DNA of 36,481 bases. Origin: an uncultured bacterium (lineage in GTDB: Bacteria; Cyanobacteriota; Vampirovibrionia; Gastranaerophilales; Gastranaerophilaceae). The notes under the pieces were generated by a model. The model saw only the letters and a program-made list of their open reading frames with translations, had not been told where the DNA came from and made no database searches. Of the stretch, positions 21,245-28,400 are shown in pieces (the stretch's first letter is position 1; the number at the start of each line of letters is the position of its first letter). Made by a program: the position numbers and the translations under genes. The stretch spans positions 1 through 36,481 of the forward strand of contig CACYKF010000028.1 in assembly GCA_902774905.1 (NCBI GenBank), in the 5' to 3' direction.

Positions 21245-21448
21245 TTAATTATCACTTAAATGCTGTGACTCGTCAAGTTCCAAATAAGAATCCTGATAGT
21301 ATTCATCAGTTTTGTCTATTTTTTCGGTTTTTACGTCCGCAAGTTGTTCCAACACTTTTGCGTAATCAAGACATTTTTTGCCTTTTATTCCTTTTGTTTC
21401 CATTTCTATTGTGCCGTCAGGCAGTAATTTGATTTTAAGTTTACCCAT
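21245..21448 (-). CDS. DUF2997-like small protein
   Basis: 67 residues. The first 40 residues (KIKLLPDGTIEMETKGIKGKKCLDYAKVLEQL) match the DUF2997 pattern: a beta hairpin with PDG, then GxKGxxCLD and a helix. The acidic, Tyr-rich tail is not part of the usual domain. The start is 2 bp after the DUF1257-like gene. DUF2997 proteins are common in cyanobacteria beside Ycf35/DUF1257. The biochemical role is unknown. Confidence 0.8.
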   Translation of the reverse strand: MGKLKIKLLPDGTIEMETKGIKGKKCLDYAKVLEQLADVKTEKIDKTDEYYQDSYLELDESQHLSDN

Positions 21449-21450
21449 TT

Positions 21451-22443
21451 TTATCCTAAATCTATTGTTAAAACTATTGAATTATCATCATTGACTTCTT
21501 CACTTTCAAGTCGCATATTTTTATCTTTAATGCGTTCAAGTATTTTTCGGTATGTCAAATCCTGAATATTTAATCCGTATTCCTCATCTAAATCTTGAAG
21601 CAACTGCCCACATTCAGATTGATCTGTAATTTGCATTATTTCAAGATTATAAGCATCATTTTTAAAATCTTTAGAATAATGAAGTTTCATTCCAAACATT
21701 TCGCAAGTTACATTAAATTCATCAGATATAATATTTGTTGCGCCATGTTCGCTGAGAGTTTTTATTAAAGTTTCTTTGTAAGTATAATTTGTTTTCTGTG
21801 TTTTTGTCGTTATCGGTTTTTGACCGGAAAGAATATTCACAAGCGGAATTTTTTGTTCTGATTCAAGGTAAAAATTCTGCTTTTTATCTTTTCTTATGTA
21901 TTTATAATTTTTGTTATTCACTCTGAATCTTATTTCAGTTTCGGTTTGTTTGGAAATATTTTCAATATTATTATTTTTCAACAGATCAAGCAATTCTTCT
22001 TTTGTTTTATAAGGAGTGTTATAGCAATAATAAAAAATTTCTTCAGATCCGACATCTCTTGTATTTTTTTTCAGAATAACATCAAATGTATTGAATAAAG
22101 TTTCAGAATAATTAACAAGCGTTTGCGCCTTATCAATAATTTTATTAAGAATACTGGAATGTTCCTCCATTGACAAAACCGCACAATAACAACCATTATA
22201 AAGTTCCCAATGAATATTCAAGCCATTATCTAATTTATAGGTATTTGCATCAATCTGTGTACATTCATCAAGATTAGCCATCAAATAAGGAATTTGTGCC
22301 GGAGTTAAATTTGTTGCTACTTTGACAAGTTTCAAATTATCTTTTTCTAAACTCAGGTCATATTTTTTAGGTGAAATTTTATTATTTTTAGCGTCAGGAC
22401 TAATTAAAAATCCCATAGGAAACGCTTTTAAAACAATGGACAT
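21451..22443 (-). CDS. DUF1257 (Ycf35-like) protein with long N-terminal extension
   Basis: 330 residues. The last 110 residues resemble Ycf35/DUF1257: TYKETLIKTLSEHGATNI ... LTYRKILERIKDKNM ... DDNSIVLTIDLG, matching the family's ending (YxYxKVLExxxxxGF...EDGSIxLxL). The middle, about 140-190 (TPYKTKEELLDLLKNNNI ... RFRVNNKNYKYI), looks like a degenerate second copy of the first half of this domain, so the protein may be a tandem duplication. The first 120 residues are not recognised. The gene lies 12 bp after the Ycf46-like ATPase gene and 2 bp before the DUF2997 gene. Function unknown. Confidence 0.7.
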   Translation of the reverse strand: MSIVLKAFPMGFLISPDAKNNKISPKKYDLSLEKDNLKLVKVATNLTPAQIPYLMANLDECTQIDANTYKLDNGLNIHWELYNGCYCAVLSMEEHSSILNKIIDKAQTLVNYSETLFNTFDVILKKNTRDVGSEEIFYYCYNTPYKTKEELLDLLKNNNIENISKQTETEIRFRVNNKNYKYIRKDKKQNFYLESEQKIPLVNILSGQKPITTKTQKTNYTYKETLIKTLSEHGATNIISDEFNVTCEMFGMKLHYSKDFKNDAYNLEIMQITDQSECGQLLQDLDEEYGLNIQDLTYRKILERIKDKNMRLESEEVNDDNSIVLTIDLG

Positions 22444-22455
22444 TTAAAACCCTCT

Positions 22456-24072
22456 CTATACATCCAACGCTCTGCCGCCTCTTGAAGCACTAACATCATC
22501 CGCACTATCAGATGAGTACATTTCCATATCGGATTTTTTAGTCGCAGCAACAGCTCTTACATTTGCCCATTCACGCAAAGAAATAATTTGTTCTTTTTGG
22601 GTAACTGATAAAGGCACTACATTTTTTATAGTTGAAGTTAAATCCTCAAAAGTCAGTGCTCTTTTATTAAAATAAGCCTCATAAAGAGAATCGATAATTA
22701 CCTGCTCAATTTCAGCACCAACAAGTCCTTCTGTCATTTGCGCAAGTTTTTTACATAAAGCATCATTCACTTGTATTTTACCGCTAACTTCTGCATCTTT
22801 CAAACGCTTGTTAAGGTGAACCTTAAAAATTTCTTCTCTTTCTTTTTGAGTAGGCATATCAACAAAGAAAATTTCGTCAAATCGACCTTTACGAAGTAAT
22901 TCCGGTGGAAGTCCGCTGATATTATTTGCAGTTGCAATAACAAATACAGGGGCTTCTTTATCCTGCATCCAATTTAGAAAAGTGCCGAAAATTCTTGAAG
23001 ATGTTCCGCTGTCACCGCTTGAATTCATACCGCTTAAACTTTTTTCAATTTCATCAACCCACAAAATTGACGGGGCAACTGCTTCAGCAGTTTTCAGGGC
23101 TTTGCGCATATTTTCTTCCGAACTGCCGACAATTCCTGCAAAAATTTTACCGAAATCAAGTTTTAATAGCGGTAATTGCCAAATTGCGCTTGTTGCTTTT
23201 GCAGTCAAACTTTTTCCGCAGCCCGGAACACCTGTAATTAAAACACCTTTGGGTGACGGCAGACAATATTTTTTTGCCGATTCCGACCAGGAATTATTCC
23301 TTTTTATCAGCCAGCCTTTTAAATTTTCAAGACCACCAATATCTTCGATTTTATATTCCGTATTGATAAATTCCAAAATCCCTGTCTTTTTAATGACCTG
23401 CATTTTTTCACTCAAAATAGTATCCAGGTCTTCAATACTGATTTTTCCATCATTGACCATAGCCAAAGCAAATGCATTTTCCGCTTCTTGTAAGGTCAAA
23501 CCCAATGCGGCCTTACAAAGTTTTTCTTCTGCCTCCGGGGTAAGTTCTGATGTATCAATCTGGGCATTTTGAGTAACCATTTTTGAAAATTTTGATTTTA
23601 TGTCTTCTAATGACGGCAAAGGCAAATCAAGAACGGTTATTTCTTTAGACATCGTATCCGGTATAATCAGTTCCGAAGACAAGAAAATAACATTTTTTCT
23701 GAATTTATCAGTTTTTAATTTTCCTATAATATCTCTAAGATGTCTTACGACATTGTAATCAGGCTGACGACCCTTAACACCAAAATAAACATGAAAATCA
23801 CACATCACAAATACGGAATTTTTTTGAACATCTTTTATAAAATCTATTGCTTTATCTGGAATATTAGTACCTTCAATAGGCTGACCGTTAAGAGTAAATC
23901 CGCCCGTTTGAGTCCATATATAGACTTCTCTCGGCACTCTGACAAGTTTTTCGGATGAAGAAATATTTTTGATAATCGCTAATGCCCGTTCTTCTTCAAA
24001 TGTCGTAAGATAGATATATGGGAATCTTGCCCGAAATAATCTTGTCAACTGCGATATAAACTTATTATCCAT
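22456..24072 (-). CDS. Ycf46-like AAA ATPase
   Basis: 538 residues, close to plastid/cyanobacterial Ycf46. An N-terminal non-ATPase domain (FPYIYLTTFEEERAL ... QKNSVFVMCDFHVYF ... NVIFLSSELIIP) precedes the AAA module. Walker A GVPGCGKS at 281-288, Walker B ILWVDEIE with Asp340-Glu341, sensor-1 IATANN near 383 and an arginine finger in RKGRFDE (397). The C-terminal lid has GLVGAEIEQVIIDSLYEAY. All catalytic residues are present. It is the third gene of a five-gene operon. In cyanobacteria Ycf46 is linked to stress and inorganic carbon responses, but the client protein is not established. Confidence 0.9.
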   Translation of the reverse strand: MDNKFISQLTRLFRARFPYIYLTTFEEERALAIIKNISSSEKLVRVPREVYIWTQTGGFTLNGQPIEGTNIPDKAIDFIKDVQKNSVFVMCDFHVYFGVKGRQPDYNVVRHLRDIIGKLKTDKFRKNVIFLSSELIIPDTMSKEITVLDLPLPSLEDIKSKFSKMVTQNAQIDTSELTPEAEEKLCKAALGLTLQEAENAFALAMVNDGKISIEDLDTILSEKMQVIKKTGILEFINTEYKIEDIGGLENLKGWLIKRNNSWSESAKKYCLPSPKGVLITGVPGCGKSLTAKATSAIWQLPLLKLDFGKIFAGIVGSSEENMRKALKTAEAVAPSILWVDEIEKSLSGMNSSGDSGTSSRIFGTFLNWMQDKEAPVFVIATANNISGLPPELLRKGRFDEIFFVDMPTQKEREEIFKVHLNKRLKDAEVSGKIQVNDALCKKLAQMTEGLVGAEIEQVIIDSLYEAYFNKRALTFEDLTSTIKNVVPLSVTQKEQIISLREWANVRAVAATKKSDMEMYSSDSADDVSASRGGRALDV

Positions 24073-24099
24073 TAAAGCACCCCTCTCATTTAATATTCA

Positions 24100-24702
24100 T
24101 TATTTTACAATATTTCTTGAGAGTTGTAAACAAAAATCACGCTCAAGTTTTGCAAAATCACCCATTCCGTTGATTTCAATTCTCCCGTCATAATCAAGAT
24201 GCAATTCAATTTTATTTTTATATTTTTTTAAATCGTTTTCACAATATCTGCTTGTAAGAAAAATAAATCTTTGATTAGAAGACCCGACCCAAGGACGGGA
24301 AAGGTCAAAATGTTCCTGCTCAAAACCGCCGTCAATAAGTAAATCGATATTAGACAAAAAATCATTGATATATTTGTCTTTTTTAAGTTTCAATTCTTCC
24401 AATGTGTATCCCGTAAAACACAAAACAGACAAATTATTTCTTTTGACCATTTTTGATAACGCCGAAAGTTCTTTTGCCTGTTCAAACGGTTCCCCGCCCA
24501 AGAAAGTGACACCCTCAATATTATCTTGTGCTTTAATAAGACTATAAAGTTCTTTTACACTATAAATTTCGCCTGAGTCAAAGTCCCATGTTTCCTTTGC
24601 AAAGCAACCTTTACAATGTTTTTTACAACCCTGAACCCAAATACAAAAACGCTGCCCCGGACCTTCTACTGCTGTATTTTTTAAAATTTTGTATATTTTC
24701 AT
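24100..24702 (-). CDS. Radical SAM activase-like protein (NrdG/PflA-like single-cluster family)
   Basis: 200 residues. The SAM-binding cluster motif CxxxCxxC is at Cys26, Cys30 and Cys33 (WVQGCKKHCKGCF), followed by TFLGGEPFEQA. The size and arrangement fit glycyl-radical activases such as the anaerobic ribonucleotide reductase activator, but no glycyl-radical enzyme is adjacent. Instead it starts 2 bp after the HhH protein gene and lies 27 bp before the Ycf46-like ATPase, so its target may belong to that system. Whether it is a true NrdG acting elsewhere cannot be decided from this window. Confidence 0.85.
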   Translation of the reverse strand: MKIYKILKNTAVEGPGQRFCIWVQGCKKHCKGCFAKETWDFDSGEIYSVKELYSLIKAQDNIEGVTFLGGEPFEQAKELSALSKMVKRNNLSVLCFTGYTLEELKLKKDKYINDFLSNIDLLIDGGFEQEHFDLSRPWVGSSNQRFIFLTSRYCENDLKKYKNKIELHLDYDGRIEINGMGDFAKLERDFCLQLSRNIVK

Positions 24703-24704
24703 TT

Positions 24705-25646
24705 TTAATCCACAATTCTTTCGGATTCGGCTTCTTTTTCTTTTTGGGTAAGAAATGAAGAAGACTTTTCCACCGTAATCATTTCCAAAATTTTTTCTCT
24801 GAAATGCGATTTTACTTCTGATACATTTAAAAAATCTTCTTTATTTTTGAAAAATCCGTTCAGATTACGGTATTCCACAATTTTTTTTGCCATAATAATA
24901 TTTATGCCCGGCAATTCAGAAATAGTTTGAGCATTTGCAAGATTTATATCAATCTTATCGCTATTTGTTAAATCTTGCATATTGACAACATCTTTTGCAT
25001 TTTCTTTATTTCCTGAAGTTTTAATTTCCTGTTTTTGCAAATCATTAAATTCTACTACAATTTGTCCATGAACTGCGCTTTGCTCAATTTTTTTTGCAAG
25101 TTTTTCATTATTAACTTTCGGAGCCGGCACAGATTTAACCTTTTTCTCAGGCAAAAATTCTTCCATCCCTTCAATTTTGAAATTGCTTTCATTGGGGGAT
25201 AAAAACAACATATTAAGACGACCGCTTGCCTTGTCTATAAAAGAAAATAATGTATCAAGATATGTATATTCTTCATAAACCGAACAAATTTCTTTCCAGC
25301 AATTATCAACATTTTCATGATTAGTTTTATCTACAATAAAGGCTCTTAATGTCTGATTACCTTTTGAAATCGGGTTGTCCATGACAACAATTTTATTACG
25401 GGGGAAATATCTTACTATACAGTGTTTGTTTGTCAAAGTATTATTGTTAAAAACAAGTTCTTTAGGGACACTTCTTATTCCGGTTAAAATATATTCCCTT
25501 TTTGCTTTTTTTATAAACAATTTAAATGATATTCCTGCCAAAATTACGAGCAAAAAGCATCCGGCAACAGCGAACGGAAGTTTGGTCGCAAGTAATAAAA
25601 AGACTAATAATAAAGGTATTATAAGTGATTTTATTTTTATATTCAT
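24705..25646 (-). CDS. Membrane-anchored helix-hairpin-helix (ComEA-like) protein
   Basis: 313 residues. Two hydrophobic segments at residues 5-28 and 28-46 anchor it in the membrane. A soluble middle region follows, then a Lys/Glu-rich linker. Residues 230-295 form a ComEA-type HhH repeat domain: INLANAQTISELPGINIIMAKKIVEYR then FFKNKEDFLNV. ComEA proteins bind incoming DNA in transformation, but the long middle domain and position as first gene of the Ycf46 operon differ from competence loci, so a DNA- or RNA-binding scaffold is an alternative. It diverges from blaI across a 134-bp gap. Confidence 0.75.
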   Translation of the reverse strand: MNIKIKSLIIPLLLVFLLLATKLPFAVAGCFLLVILAGISFKLFIKKAKREYILTGIRSVPKELVFNNNTLTNKHCIVRYFPRNKIVVMDNPISKGNQTLRAFIVDKTNHENVDNCWKEICSVYEEYTYLDTLFSFIDKASGRLNMLFLSPNESNFKIEGMEEFLPEKKVKSVPAPKVNNEKLAKKIEQSAVHGQIVVEFNDLQKQEIKTSGNKENAKDVVNMQDLTNSDKIDINLANAQTISELPGINIIMAKKIVEYRNLNGFFKNKEDFLNVSEVKSHFREKILEMITVEKSSSFLTQKEKEAESERIVD

Positions 25647-25780: not shown

Positions 25781-26125
25781 ATGGCTTGCGGTTTTTTAGA
25801 AATGGAAATTTTAAATACATTTTGGAATTTAACTTCCGAAAATGAAGACAGAGATATTTCAATTCAGGATGTCGTTGACGAACTTTCATCAAACGGTGTT
25901 GAAAGAGCATACACTACGATTAAAACCGTTATGGACAGATTAGTTTCTAAAAGTATTTTAGTTCGTTACAAAACCGGTAAAAAATTCTTTTACAAGGTGA
26001 CTATGGACAAACGCGAAATGGCACTTGATATGATGAAAGAATTTACCGACAATTTCTTTGACGGTGATATATCAAAGATGGTTCGTTTTGTTGAAAAAGA
26101 AACGGTTGAACTTCTTGTAAAATAA
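25781..26125 (+). CDS. BlaI/MecI/CopY-family transcriptional repressor
   Basis: 114 residues, the family's usual size. The N-terminal winged helix has LEMEILNTFWNL, ISIQDVVDELSSN, RAYTTIKTVMDRLVSKSILVR and FFYKVTMDKREMA. The C-terminal helices allow dimerisation. BlaI and MecI repress until cleaved by the BlaR1/MecR1 sensor protease. No such sensor or beta-lactamase gene is in this window, so the signal is unknown. GGAG precedes the start. It is the first of five closely spaced genes. Confidence 0.9.
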   Translation: MACGFLEMEILNTFWNLTSENEDRDISIQDVVDELSSNGVERAYTTIKTVMDRLVSKSILVRYKTGKKFFYKVTMDKREMALDMMKEFTDNFFDGDISKMVRFVEKETVELLVK

Positions 26126-26127
26126 TT

Positions 26128-26505
26128 ATGAGCGAAGAACAGAACAAAGACAGACGCTTTGTTGCGGAAATTTTACGCAATGTCAGGTTGGGGCAATTAT
26201 CCGTAAGAGAGGCTATGTTGCACTACCCAAAAGACACAAAGGATGAGAGCCTAATTGCGGCATATCACGCACTTATTCATTACGAAGCAGATGAGGATAT
26301 AAGAGCAAGAGATATTTTGTTTCGGGAAGAACAAGACGATTATATTGAATTTATTTATACTACGCTTGCAAACGGAGATGATTTACCGCAAAATATAATA
26401 GATTCATACAAAGAGTTTTATGACAAGGCTCCTATTTTGCATGAAAAAAATGCAAAAGGCTTTTGGAAAAGTTTTTGGAAAAATTTGAATGTAAAGGATG
26501 ATTAA
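26128..26505 (+). CDS. Hypothetical cytoplasmic protein in blaI operon
   Basis: 125 residues, mostly helical and acidic, with no signal peptide and no membrane segment. Residues 10-90 (RFVAEILRNVRLGQLSVREAM ... LIAAYHALIHYEADEDIRARD) have the amphipathic repeats of a small helical bundle. The last part is rich in Trp, Phe and Lys (FWKSFWKNLNV). No family recognised. Gaps of 2 bp on both sides make cotranscription with blaI and the lipoprotein gene nearly certain. Confidence 0.75.
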   Translation: MSEEQNKDRRFVAEILRNVRLGQLSVREAMLHYPKDTKDESLIAAYHALIHYEADEDIRARDILFREEQDDYIEFIYTTLANGDDLPQNIIDSYKEFYDKAPILHEKNAKGFWKSFWKNLNVKDD

Positions 26506-26507
26506 TT

Positions 26508-27653
26508 ATGAAAAGGTTGTATTCAGTTTTACTTGCAATTATTATAGCGGTCAGCATTGTACCTGTAGTAAGTGCATGTCATTTTAAGAAGGAAAAACTT
26601 ATAGAGGAATCTTCTGTTGTAACTCAACCAGAAGAAAAAACAGAAATTTATTATGCAAAGACTAAAAGCGGGGCAGAAACTGATGCTGTAATTCTTGCAA
26701 CGATGCAGGATACAATGCCGGATGGGAACTGTCTTTGGGTCGGCACATTTCAAATTGTTTGGAATGAGGTTATAGACAACATTACTCGTCGTCCTATTGA
26801 ATTTGTAGAAGGAACAACGGTAACCGCAAAGCATCTTAATAAAAGAGAATTTAAGAAGACAGACATCAGCGAAAATTCTTATTACACAAAATATGGGAAA
26901 GTATCTCCCGAATTAAAAAAAGAAATTGAAAAAGGCATAAAAGAAAAATTTAATGAAACAAGCGATATATTACATTCATTTGATTTCAGTTATAACCCAA
27001 AAAAAATATTTATTTATGCAATGCTAAAAAAAGATTTTAAATTTCTTGAACCGTTTGATAAACTTTCTGAAGATACTTTCGGAAACAAAAATAGTGAAAA
27101 AGTAAAGTATTTCGGAATAAAATCAAGCAGTTCAAAAAATCTCTATAAGAATGTTTCGGTGCTTTTCTATAATTCTGACAATGACTATGCCGTAAAATTA
27201 AACACTAAAACCAATGACAGAGTTATTTTATACCGAACTGATGATATTAAGAAATTCAATGAATACTATAATGATATAAAATCTAAAAGCAAGGCTTTCG
27301 ATGATAATAAGTATTTCGGGCATTATGACAGATTAAAAGTACCTGATATTTCGCTTTATCTTAAAACAAGTTTTAGGGATGTCGAAGGTAAGCATATAAA
27401 AAAATCTGATTTTAAAATTGATAAAACTATAGAAACAATTGATTTCAAAATGGATAATGAGGGTGTAAAATTAAAAAGTGAAGCAGCAATGCTGATGTTG
27501 AACAGTGCTGGTCCGGGGGTTACACCTAAAATCAGATATTTTTATTTTGATAAAGATTTTGTACTTTTCCTGATTGAGGATGGTAAGAATGTTCCGTATT
27601 ATGCAATGCGTGTAACAGATATTGCAAGCCTGAATAAAACGGGGAAAAAGTAA
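26508..27653 (+). CDS. Predicted lipoprotein with serpin-like C-terminus
   Basis: 381 residues. A signal peptide ends in a lipobox VSAC with Cys24 as the lipid-attachment residue. The C-terminal 100 residues follow the serpin pattern: ETIDFKMDNEGVKLKSEAAM corresponds to the strand and hinge before the reactive loop (usually xxVNEEGTEAAAAT). About 34 residues later YFDKDFVLFLIED corresponds to the DxPFLFxI strand. A segment near residue 80 (NCLWVGTFQIVWNEVID) may match the serpin NAxYFKGxWxxPF strand. The hinge has Lys where inhibitory serpins have small residues, so protease inhibition is doubtful. The serpin reading is pattern-based and uncertain. Confidence 0.6.
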   Translation: MKRLYSVLLAIIIAVSIVPVVSACHFKKEKLIEESSVVTQPEEKTEIYYAKTKSGAETDAVILATMQDTMPDGNCLWVGTFQIVWNEVIDNITRRPIEFVEGTTVTAKHLNKREFKKTDISENSYYTKYGKVSPELKKEIEKGIKEKFNETSDILHSFDFSYNPKKIFIYAMLKKDFKFLEPFDKLSEDTFGNKNSEKVKYFGIKSSSSKNLYKNVSVLFYNSDNDYAVKLNTKTNDRVILYRTDDIKKFNEYYNDIKSKSKAFDDNKYFGHYDRLKVPDISLYLKTSFRDVEGKHIKKSDFKIDKTIETIDFKMDNEGVKLKSEAAMLMLNSAGPGVTPKIRYFYFDKDFVLFLIEDGKNVPYYAMRVTDIASLNKTGKK

Positions 27654-27656
27654 CAA

Positions 27657-28400
27657 ATGTCCGAACTTTTTTCAAGAAATATTCTCTATTGGGGTGAAGA
27701 AAAACAAAAATATTTAGCGCAAAAGCATATTGTCGTGTTTGGTTTAGGCGGAGTTGGAGGTTTTTGCGCTGAGGCTCTTGCAAGGACAGGGGTTGGGCAT
27801 CTGACTATTGTTGATTTTGACACGGTTTCAGAATCAAATATTAATCGTCAGAGCATTGCCCTGCACTCAACAATCGGACAAAAAAAGACAGAACTTTTTG
27901 AAAAAAGATTAAAAGATATCAATCCTGAAATAAATATTGAAATTGTTGATGATTTTTATACAGAAAATAATCAAATTATGACAGGGCAATATGATTATGT
28001 TGCAGATGCAATAGATACAATGCGTTCAAAAATTCATCTTTTAAAGACCTGTTATGAAAATAAAATTCCCGTCATAAGTTCAATGGGTGCAGGGAACAGA
28101 ATTGATCCGACAAAACTTTATATTGCCGATTTAAAAGATGTGGAAAACCGTAATGCACCGTTTGTATCCAATGTAATTTATCAACTAAAAAAACTCGGAA
28201 TTACTCAGGGAATAACTTTTGTTTGTTCAAGAGAAACTCCGCATGCGCAGGAAAAAATAACTGAAAAAGAAGAAATAACGACAAATTCGGGTGAAAAAAT
28301 TGAGTTTAACAAAATTATCCCGAGTTCCACTCCGTTTGTTGCTTCATGTTCCGGTATTTTTATGGCATCATATATTGTAAGAAAACTAATTGAGGGTTAA
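27657..28400 (+). CDS. tcdA: tRNA threonylcarbamoyladenosine dehydratase (TcdA)
   Basis: 247 residues of the E1/ThiF/MoeB superfamily. The ATP-binding FGLGGVGGFCAEALARTG is near residue 28, then the VDFDTVSESNINRQ segment and a second-half DAIDTMRSK. The C-terminal VCSRETPHA segment is seen in TcdA/CsdL. The enzyme cyclises t6A to ct6A at position 37 of ANN-decoding tRNAs. The length excludes full MoeB/ThiF with rhodanese. Gap of 3 bp to the lipoprotein gene and to the SDR gene. Confidence 0.9.
   Translation: MSELFSRNILYWGEEKQKYLAQKHIVVFGLGGVGGFCAEALARTGVGHLTIVDFDTVSESNINRQSIALHSTIGQKKTELFEKRLKDINPEINIEIVDDFYTENNQIMTGQYDYVADAIDTMRSKIHLLKTCYENKIPVISSMGAGNRIDPTKLYIADLKDVENRNAPFVSNVIYQLKKLGITQGITFVCSRETPHAQEKITEKEEITTNSGEKIEFNKIIPSSTPFVASCSGIFMASYIVRKLIEG

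Follow-up and report, generated by a model that had tools for sequence, protein, structure and literature searches.

Ycf46, Ycf35 (DUF1257) and DUF2997 are widespread, conserved proteins without a known mechanism, and the locus described here raises the question of what they do in an operon that also encodes a radical S-adenosylmethionine (SAM) enzyme and a helix-hairpin-helix (HhH) membrane protein. The operon occupies positions 21245-25646, on the minus strand, of a 36,481-nucleotide stretch of DNA from an uncultured bacterium (GenBank assembly GCA_902774905.1, contig CACYKF010000028.1), referred to below as the window. Its genes are transcribed in the order HhH, radical SAM enzyme, Ycf46-like AAA ATPase, DUF1257 and DUF2997, with successive gaps of 2, 27, 12 and 2 bp. 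The host genome (G000, 2.0 Mb) belongs to the Gastranaerophilales part of the cyanobacterial phylum, a lineage that is the non-photosynthetic sister of the oxygenic cyanobacteria. An earlier note on this DNA had described the five genes as one operon with gaps of 2-27 bp, and both their coordinates and the gaps were confirmed; its surmise of a probable non-photosynthetic bacterium proved right in an unexpected way, the genome lying within the cyanobacterial phylum but in the Gastranaerophilales. Four of the five gene names are backed directly by Pfam and NCBIfam profiles, DUF1257 being the exception. The five genes seem to be one functional module that moves horizontally and occurs in six or more further bacterial phyla, and the plastid-named proteins are here parts of this larger mobile unit.

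Recurrence of the gene set across phyla

In a scan of species genomes, the same gene set, its order shuffled, was found not only in Gastranaerophilales but also in Actinomycetota, Bacillota, Bacteroidota and Fusobacteriota and in single genomes of Planctomycetota and Armatimonadota; because the set recurs across phyla, the grouping goes far beyond chance. The earlier note had proposed such a neighbourhood survey and had named the lack of any recurrence outside this lineage as the outcome that would undo its reading, an objection that fails decisively now that the association is seen far beyond the lineage. A Paenarthrobacter plasmid also bears the same five genes, and its ATPase is 47% identical to that of the window. 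A radical SAM gene lies within about 7 kb in 69 of 137 distinct ATPase loci, a proportion that is not a natural frequency because the scan was seeded with radical SAM-linked ATPases and so favours such loci, and 62 of these 69 loci hold DUF1257 and DUF2997 as well. With H, R, A, 1 and 2 standing for HhH, radical SAM, ATPase, DUF1257 and DUF2997, the many orders seen across loci include HRA12, A12HR, A21HR, 2HRA1 and A2R1H, so that groups differ in arrangement but keep the set. The first of these, with an HhH homologue in the same place as in the window, is found at 24 loci, and the commonest adjacency (51 cases) places the radical SAM gene directly downstream of the HhH gene. In two genomes (G009 and G227), the operon is broken into HhH-radical SAM and ATPase-DUF1257-DUF2997, and both halves and their tails are retained.

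Among 145 genomes of the host's family, 39 have both the ATPase and the radical SAM enzyme, 3 the ATPase only, 1 the radical SAM enzyme only and 102 neither (Fisher P about 1e-30, not corrected for shared descent). In a quick maximum-likelihood tree from which the tail columns were left out, nearly all radical SAM-linked ATPases, including that of the window, fall in a clade of 36 rows (Shimodaira-Hasegawa-like approximate likelihood ratio test support 99) that also holds Bacillota and Actinomycetota members and is separate from the Ycf46 of oxygenic cyanobacteria, to which the window ATPase is about 47% identical over residues 8-511. The window ATPase and its relatives in the family group with Clostridia (support 98). 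This placement, together with a patchy presence in only 42 of the 145 family genomes, looks like horizontal spread rather than descent from a photosynthetic ancestor, and the connection with plastid genes would therefore be one of distant homology. The earlier idea that a plastid-type Ycf46 reveals its role here is thus not borne out, and of the suggested 'core role unrelated to photosynthesis' the role outside photosynthesis holds, but 'core' is wrong for a lineage in which the ATPase is so often missing.

A shared C-terminal tail

Read across loci, the ATPases and the HhH proteins of the module end alike, in RGGRTLDF, EGRIVDF, AERIIDL and similar sequences. In the window, the ATPase ends in RGGRALDV (22459..22482, minus strand, as are all features given below), preceded by a variable linker, and the HhH protein in SERIVD (24708..24725). 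R-G-G-R-x-x-D is invariant in the eight sequences of the ATPase alignment A1, in which the linker before the tail varies in length. The motif [GE][RK]x[ILVMF][DE][FYILVWM] at the extreme C-terminus matches 59 of the 69 radical SAM-linked ATPases and 76 of 88 HhH proteins, compared with 12 of 3,883 other open reading frames, a contrast that is still very large once it is allowed that the motif was picked after viewing the data and that the exact ratio is somewhat flattered. Eleven of these 12 other frames, which encode TPR, Mrr-like and membrane proteins, also neighbour an ATPase of the module kind. The tail is not an artefact of a ribosome-binding site, an origin ruled out because its arginine codons vary (AGA, AGG and CGN) and because tails also occur where operons end.

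The HhH protein itself (313 aa, 24705..25646) comprises two N-terminal hydrophobic segments, as read from the sequence, a linker and a C-terminal HHH_3 domain (56 bits against a cut-off of 27). It resembles ComEA-type proteins in having an N-terminal membrane segment and a C-terminal HHH_3 domain; the module HhH proteins differ from them in falling below the ComEA cut-offs (for the window protein, 35.4 against 152.35 for TIGR01259 and 34.4 against 53.1 for TIGR00426), in an altered second hairpin (a 'PH' motif in many) and in bearing the tail. At one locus (L142, 2191-7233), eight tandem HhH frames stand upstream of the radical SAM gene; seven carry the shared tail (EREIDF, ERNLDI, ERIIDI and others), and the eighth is a partial overlapping frame. 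In a mobile variant lying between tyrosine recombinases, TPR-HhH proteins and an Mrr_cat membrane protein carry the tail as well. The loci of this variant (L040, L041 and L074-L076) belong to the Gastranaerophilaceae genomes G291, G025, G207, G034 and G037.

The tail may serve as a docking signal for the partners of the module. A pattern search of the genome for further tail-bearing proteins, restricted to stops other than TGA and to tails that include the final residue, returned only the ATPase and one match with an in-frame stop, against one match in the control, and no natural fusion joining the tail to its reader was present among the open reading frames examined. The tail offers an experimental handle: it predicts partner proteins, allows binding tests with short peptides and can be removed from one protein at a time. 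No description of the radical SAM-HhH-ATPase set or of the shared tail was found in the literature searched, from which most subscription journals were absent, and the full five-gene kit with its tail seems undescribed.

A candidate remodelling mechanism and its rivals

The ATPase (538 aa, 22456..24072; 99 bits to the Pfam AAA profile) has a predicted model with a predicted local distance difference test score (pLDDT) of 87, residues 1-506 of which align with p97/Cdc48 as two tandem AAA domains (VIA-align Z 28-30, 466-475 residues aligned). Walker A is found only once, as GVPGCGKS at residues 281-288, and the first half is without a P-loop. The alignment over residues 1-506 therefore indicates that the N-terminal half (about residues 1-235, 23368..24072) is a degenerate first AAA domain whose P-loop has been lost. 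The predicted active second domain (about residues 236-511, 22540..23367) contains this Walker A and the Walker B ILWVDEIEK, and is Vps4-like (Z 25-27). The tandem fold and the Vps4-like second domain recall p97/Cdc48, Rix7, AFG2 and Vps4. Unlike in these, the first domain of the module ATPase has no Walker A, neither an N-domain nor a MIT domain is seen, and the partners bear no relation to ubiquitin or ESCRT-III. A protein with two AAA copies, the N-terminal one inactive, has been noted adjacent to PspA (PMC11237479).

On balance, with a modest preference, we favour a membrane-associated, p97-like remodelling module whose partners are docked by their tails and in which the radical SAM enzyme has one of the module's own proteins as its substrate, the HhH protein being the likeliest. 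The ATPase would be a machine of two AAA domains, of which only the second is live, and the tail would bring ATPase and HhH partners (elsewhere TPR or Mrr-like proteins) to a common hub, most likely DUF1257 and/or DUF2997. Hydrolysis of ATP would then remodel or assemble the tail-bearing membrane proteins, the HhH protein presumably among them, and the NrdG-like radical SAM enzyme would act on the HhH protein encoded alongside. Computation supplies the gene set, its recurrence, the clade, the co-occurrence, the tail, the predicted tandem-AAA fold and the separate NrdD activase, from which we infer the docking by the tail, the hub, the remodelling of the HhH protein and the target and chemistry of the radical SAM enzyme. 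The earlier note had suggested ATP-driven remodelling of a radical or metal enzyme at the membrane; a module, the membrane and probably the ATP-driven remodelling stand, but nothing points to a radical or metal enzyme as the client, and the visible candidates are the tailed HhH, TPR and Mrr-like proteins. The broader proposal, to which we give about an even chance, is that of a new class of bacterial machine, mobile between phyla, in which a p97-like AAA, DUF1257/DUF2997 hubs and a radical SAM enzyme act on interchangeable tail-marked membrane proteins, and which has related versions free of the radical SAM enzyme, with tails of their own, in phages and conjugative plasmids.

Several points weigh against this mechanism, beginning with the seeding of the scan and the blindness of the P value to phylogeny mentioned above. 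Two family genomes (G197 and G249) have the ATPase and tailed TPR/Mrr-like proteins with no radical SAM match at E 1e-12, so the enzyme can be dispensable. The HhH tail of the window, SERIVD, is one residue short and is without the final hydrophobic residue of its relatives (KERTVDL, EGRIVDF). In the ATPase model, the tail has a pLDDT of 79 against 69 in the preceding linker, which suggests a contact of the tail with the ATPase itself; the tail appears packed there, and the ATPase, rather than DUF1257/DUF2997, may be what reads it.

The strongest rival, which we hold possible and clearly less probable than the remodelling module, is an anti-phage or inter-element conflict system, in which effectors that can replace one another (membrane HhH, TPR or Mrr-like nuclease) are brought by the tail to an ATPase/DUF1257/DUF2997 core, the radical SAM enzyme arms or matures the effector, and phages and plasmids use the core for themselves or as counter-defence. 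It would account for the patchy distribution, the plasmid and satellite-phage copies, the HhH gene clusters of up to eight and the Mrr_cat variant (83 bits) that sits between tyrosine recombinases. Hachiman stands beside the mobile variant in one case (L076; HamA 1.6e-74, HamB 4.3e-211), ThsB-like and SoFic matches occur within the same set, and DpdF and PsyrT matches occur in flanks in other phyla. Set against this, PADLOC matches also turn up in same-taxon control flanks for the chromosomal variant, mostly methyltransferases and housekeeping look-alikes, so that, Hachiman apart, the flanks argue weakly for defence; in the comparison of defence islands with these controls only the Mrr variant stands out. 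The chromosomal variant is without a nuclease, and in the 2023 PADLOC library the matches to module proteins are generic ones, to IetA/TRIP13 AAA, viperin-like radical SAM and Mrr-type nuclease entries.

Two further readings assign the tail another part. In the first, the radical SAM enzyme targets the glycine conserved in the tail and would form a glycyl radical or a backbone change there. The nearest solved structures to the enzyme are indeed pyruvate formate-lyase activases, enzymes that target a glycine within a short peptide loop, and R-G-G-R is invariant in the aligned radical SAM-linked ATPases and absent from the tails of phage systems free of the enzyme. Tails that have no glycine speak against such a radical: two radical SAM-bearing loci have ATPases ending in NPRILDYQ (L160) and RARKLYF (L163), and many HhH tails carry E in place of G, which makes this reading unlikely. 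Slightly less likely again is that the tail marks its bearers for degradation or threading, and that the ATPase unfolds them much like ssrA-tagged proteins for a protease encoded elsewhere. The p97/Cdc48-like fold and the position of the tail at the extreme C-terminus would suit it, but the module has no protease, the ATPase bears the same tail itself, and the tailed proteins are co-encoded, as partners are and waste is not.

The radical SAM enzyme (200 aa, 24100..24702) has an intact CxxxCxxC (QGCKKHCKGC) and a GGEP motif, and matches Fer4_12 at 136.8 bits. These motifs and the overall family link it to NrdG and pyruvate formate-lyase activases, from which the module differs in having no glycyl radical enzyme and its radical SAM protein in a C-terminal extension. 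The earlier note had regarded a plain NrdG, with its partner nrdD elsewhere in the genome, as fatal to its proposal. The genome does encode nrdD, on contig C26, with an NrdG2-type activase of its own directly downstream (217.7 bits against a cut-off of 131.15), so the module enzyme is most likely not a plain NrdG and not the reductase activase. That it is nevertheless a plain NrdG, beside the ATPase operon by chance and serving a class III ribonucleotide reductase encoded elsewhere, is highly improbable: it clears the curated NrdG cut-off of TIGR02491 (133.4 against 126.1) as the only such match in the genome, but its relatives in the same module score below that cut-off (89.7-125.9), besides the module enzyme G009 encodes an independent NrdD-NrdG pair, and the linkage to AAA, HhH, DUF1257 and DUF2997 is maintained across phyla.

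Relatives without the radical SAM enzyme and the remaining proteins

Ycf46-like ATPases, many beside DUF1257 and DUF2997, are also encoded by Rhizobium, Rhodobacter and Pseudomonas phages, mycobacteriophage Firecracker, a Streptococcus satellite phage and IncC plasmids. The IncC plasmids and phages have the same three-gene core, and in some of them unrelated neighbours of the core share a C-terminal tail; they differ from the module in having no radical SAM enzyme and no HhH protein but DUF3150 and SWIM-like proteins, which are among the tailed ones, and in the tails themselves. A clear shared tail of other sequence (RFSLVKL, RRILID or KRKIILD; pair scores 23-33) is present on unrelated neighbours in 3 of 17 loci free of the radical SAM enzyme; among the other loci of this set, sharing is hinted at in some and not seen in several. 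The third of these tails is shared by two neighbours of an ATPase-DUF1257-DUF2997 set in an IncC backbone (L107, 4018-8696). On a viral contig (L097, 5401-8490), a Ycf46-like ATPase is split just before Walker B by an apparent intein (ending VVSHN|C), with a zinc-finger/HNH-like frame in between.

The cyanobacterial and plastid systems have homologous AAA, DUF1257 and DUF2997 proteins, but their ATPase belongs to another clade, and the module has a radical SAM enzyme and a tailed HhH protein where cyanobacteria have a ferredoxin. Many of the sampled cyanobacterial Ycf46 proteins end in QRLEF or QRMEF, compared with RGGRxLDF in the module ATPases. DUF2997, ycf35 and fed7 form a cyanobacterial cluster, 'cluster g', with the ferredoxin Fed7 (PMC4284462), and in red algal plastids the presence of Ycf46 and Ycf35 tracks habitat, with shared losses (PMC5940233). 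In Synechocystis, inactivation of Ycf46 lowers the activity of the carbonic anhydrase EcaB, according to Jiang et al. 2015 as cited in PMC7496141. Tail-marked partners may also be the reason why phages, IncC plasmids, cyanobacteria and plastids have this core in common. In the oxygenic cyanobacterium Limnofasciculus (L167, 7252-9434), a radical SAM gene of the module type adjoins a Ycf46-like ATPase without a tail.

The DUF1257/Ycf35-like protein of the window (330 aa, 21451..22443), the DUF1257 domain of which is its C-terminal half, lies below the gathering score of PF06868 (13.9 bits against 22.2), and a profile search found no match to this family anywhere in the genome. The label is accepted because a profile-profile alignment to DUF1257 proteins of cyanobacteria, phages and plasmids supports homology (hhalign probability 96.1, E 2.9e-9, residues 211-329). 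The predicted fold consists of two alpha/beta repeats, with the N-terminal 25 residues not ordered; the best fold matches, the adaptin appendage, KA1 and the spermine synthase N-domain, reach Z 8-9, too near the usual level to name a relative. Most module DUF1257-like proteins begin with a conserved hydrophobic stretch. The N-terminus is Met-Ser in 26 of 26 sequences (alignments A3 and A4, including the window protein) and extends to Met-Ser-His in nearly all members from cyanobacteria, phages and plasmids, so that a free N-terminal serine may matter. The DUF2997 protein (67 aa, 21245..21448), with invariant Gly12 and Cys26, passes the PF11211 gathering cut-off (43 bits against 24.1).

A tRNA-Ser is next after the operon. 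Divergent from the module, at 25781-28400, the window encodes a BlaI/MecI-type repressor, a 125-aa protein, a lipoprotein-like protein and a TcdA-like ThiF-family protein, a group of genes that stays together in close relatives (L058 and L059).

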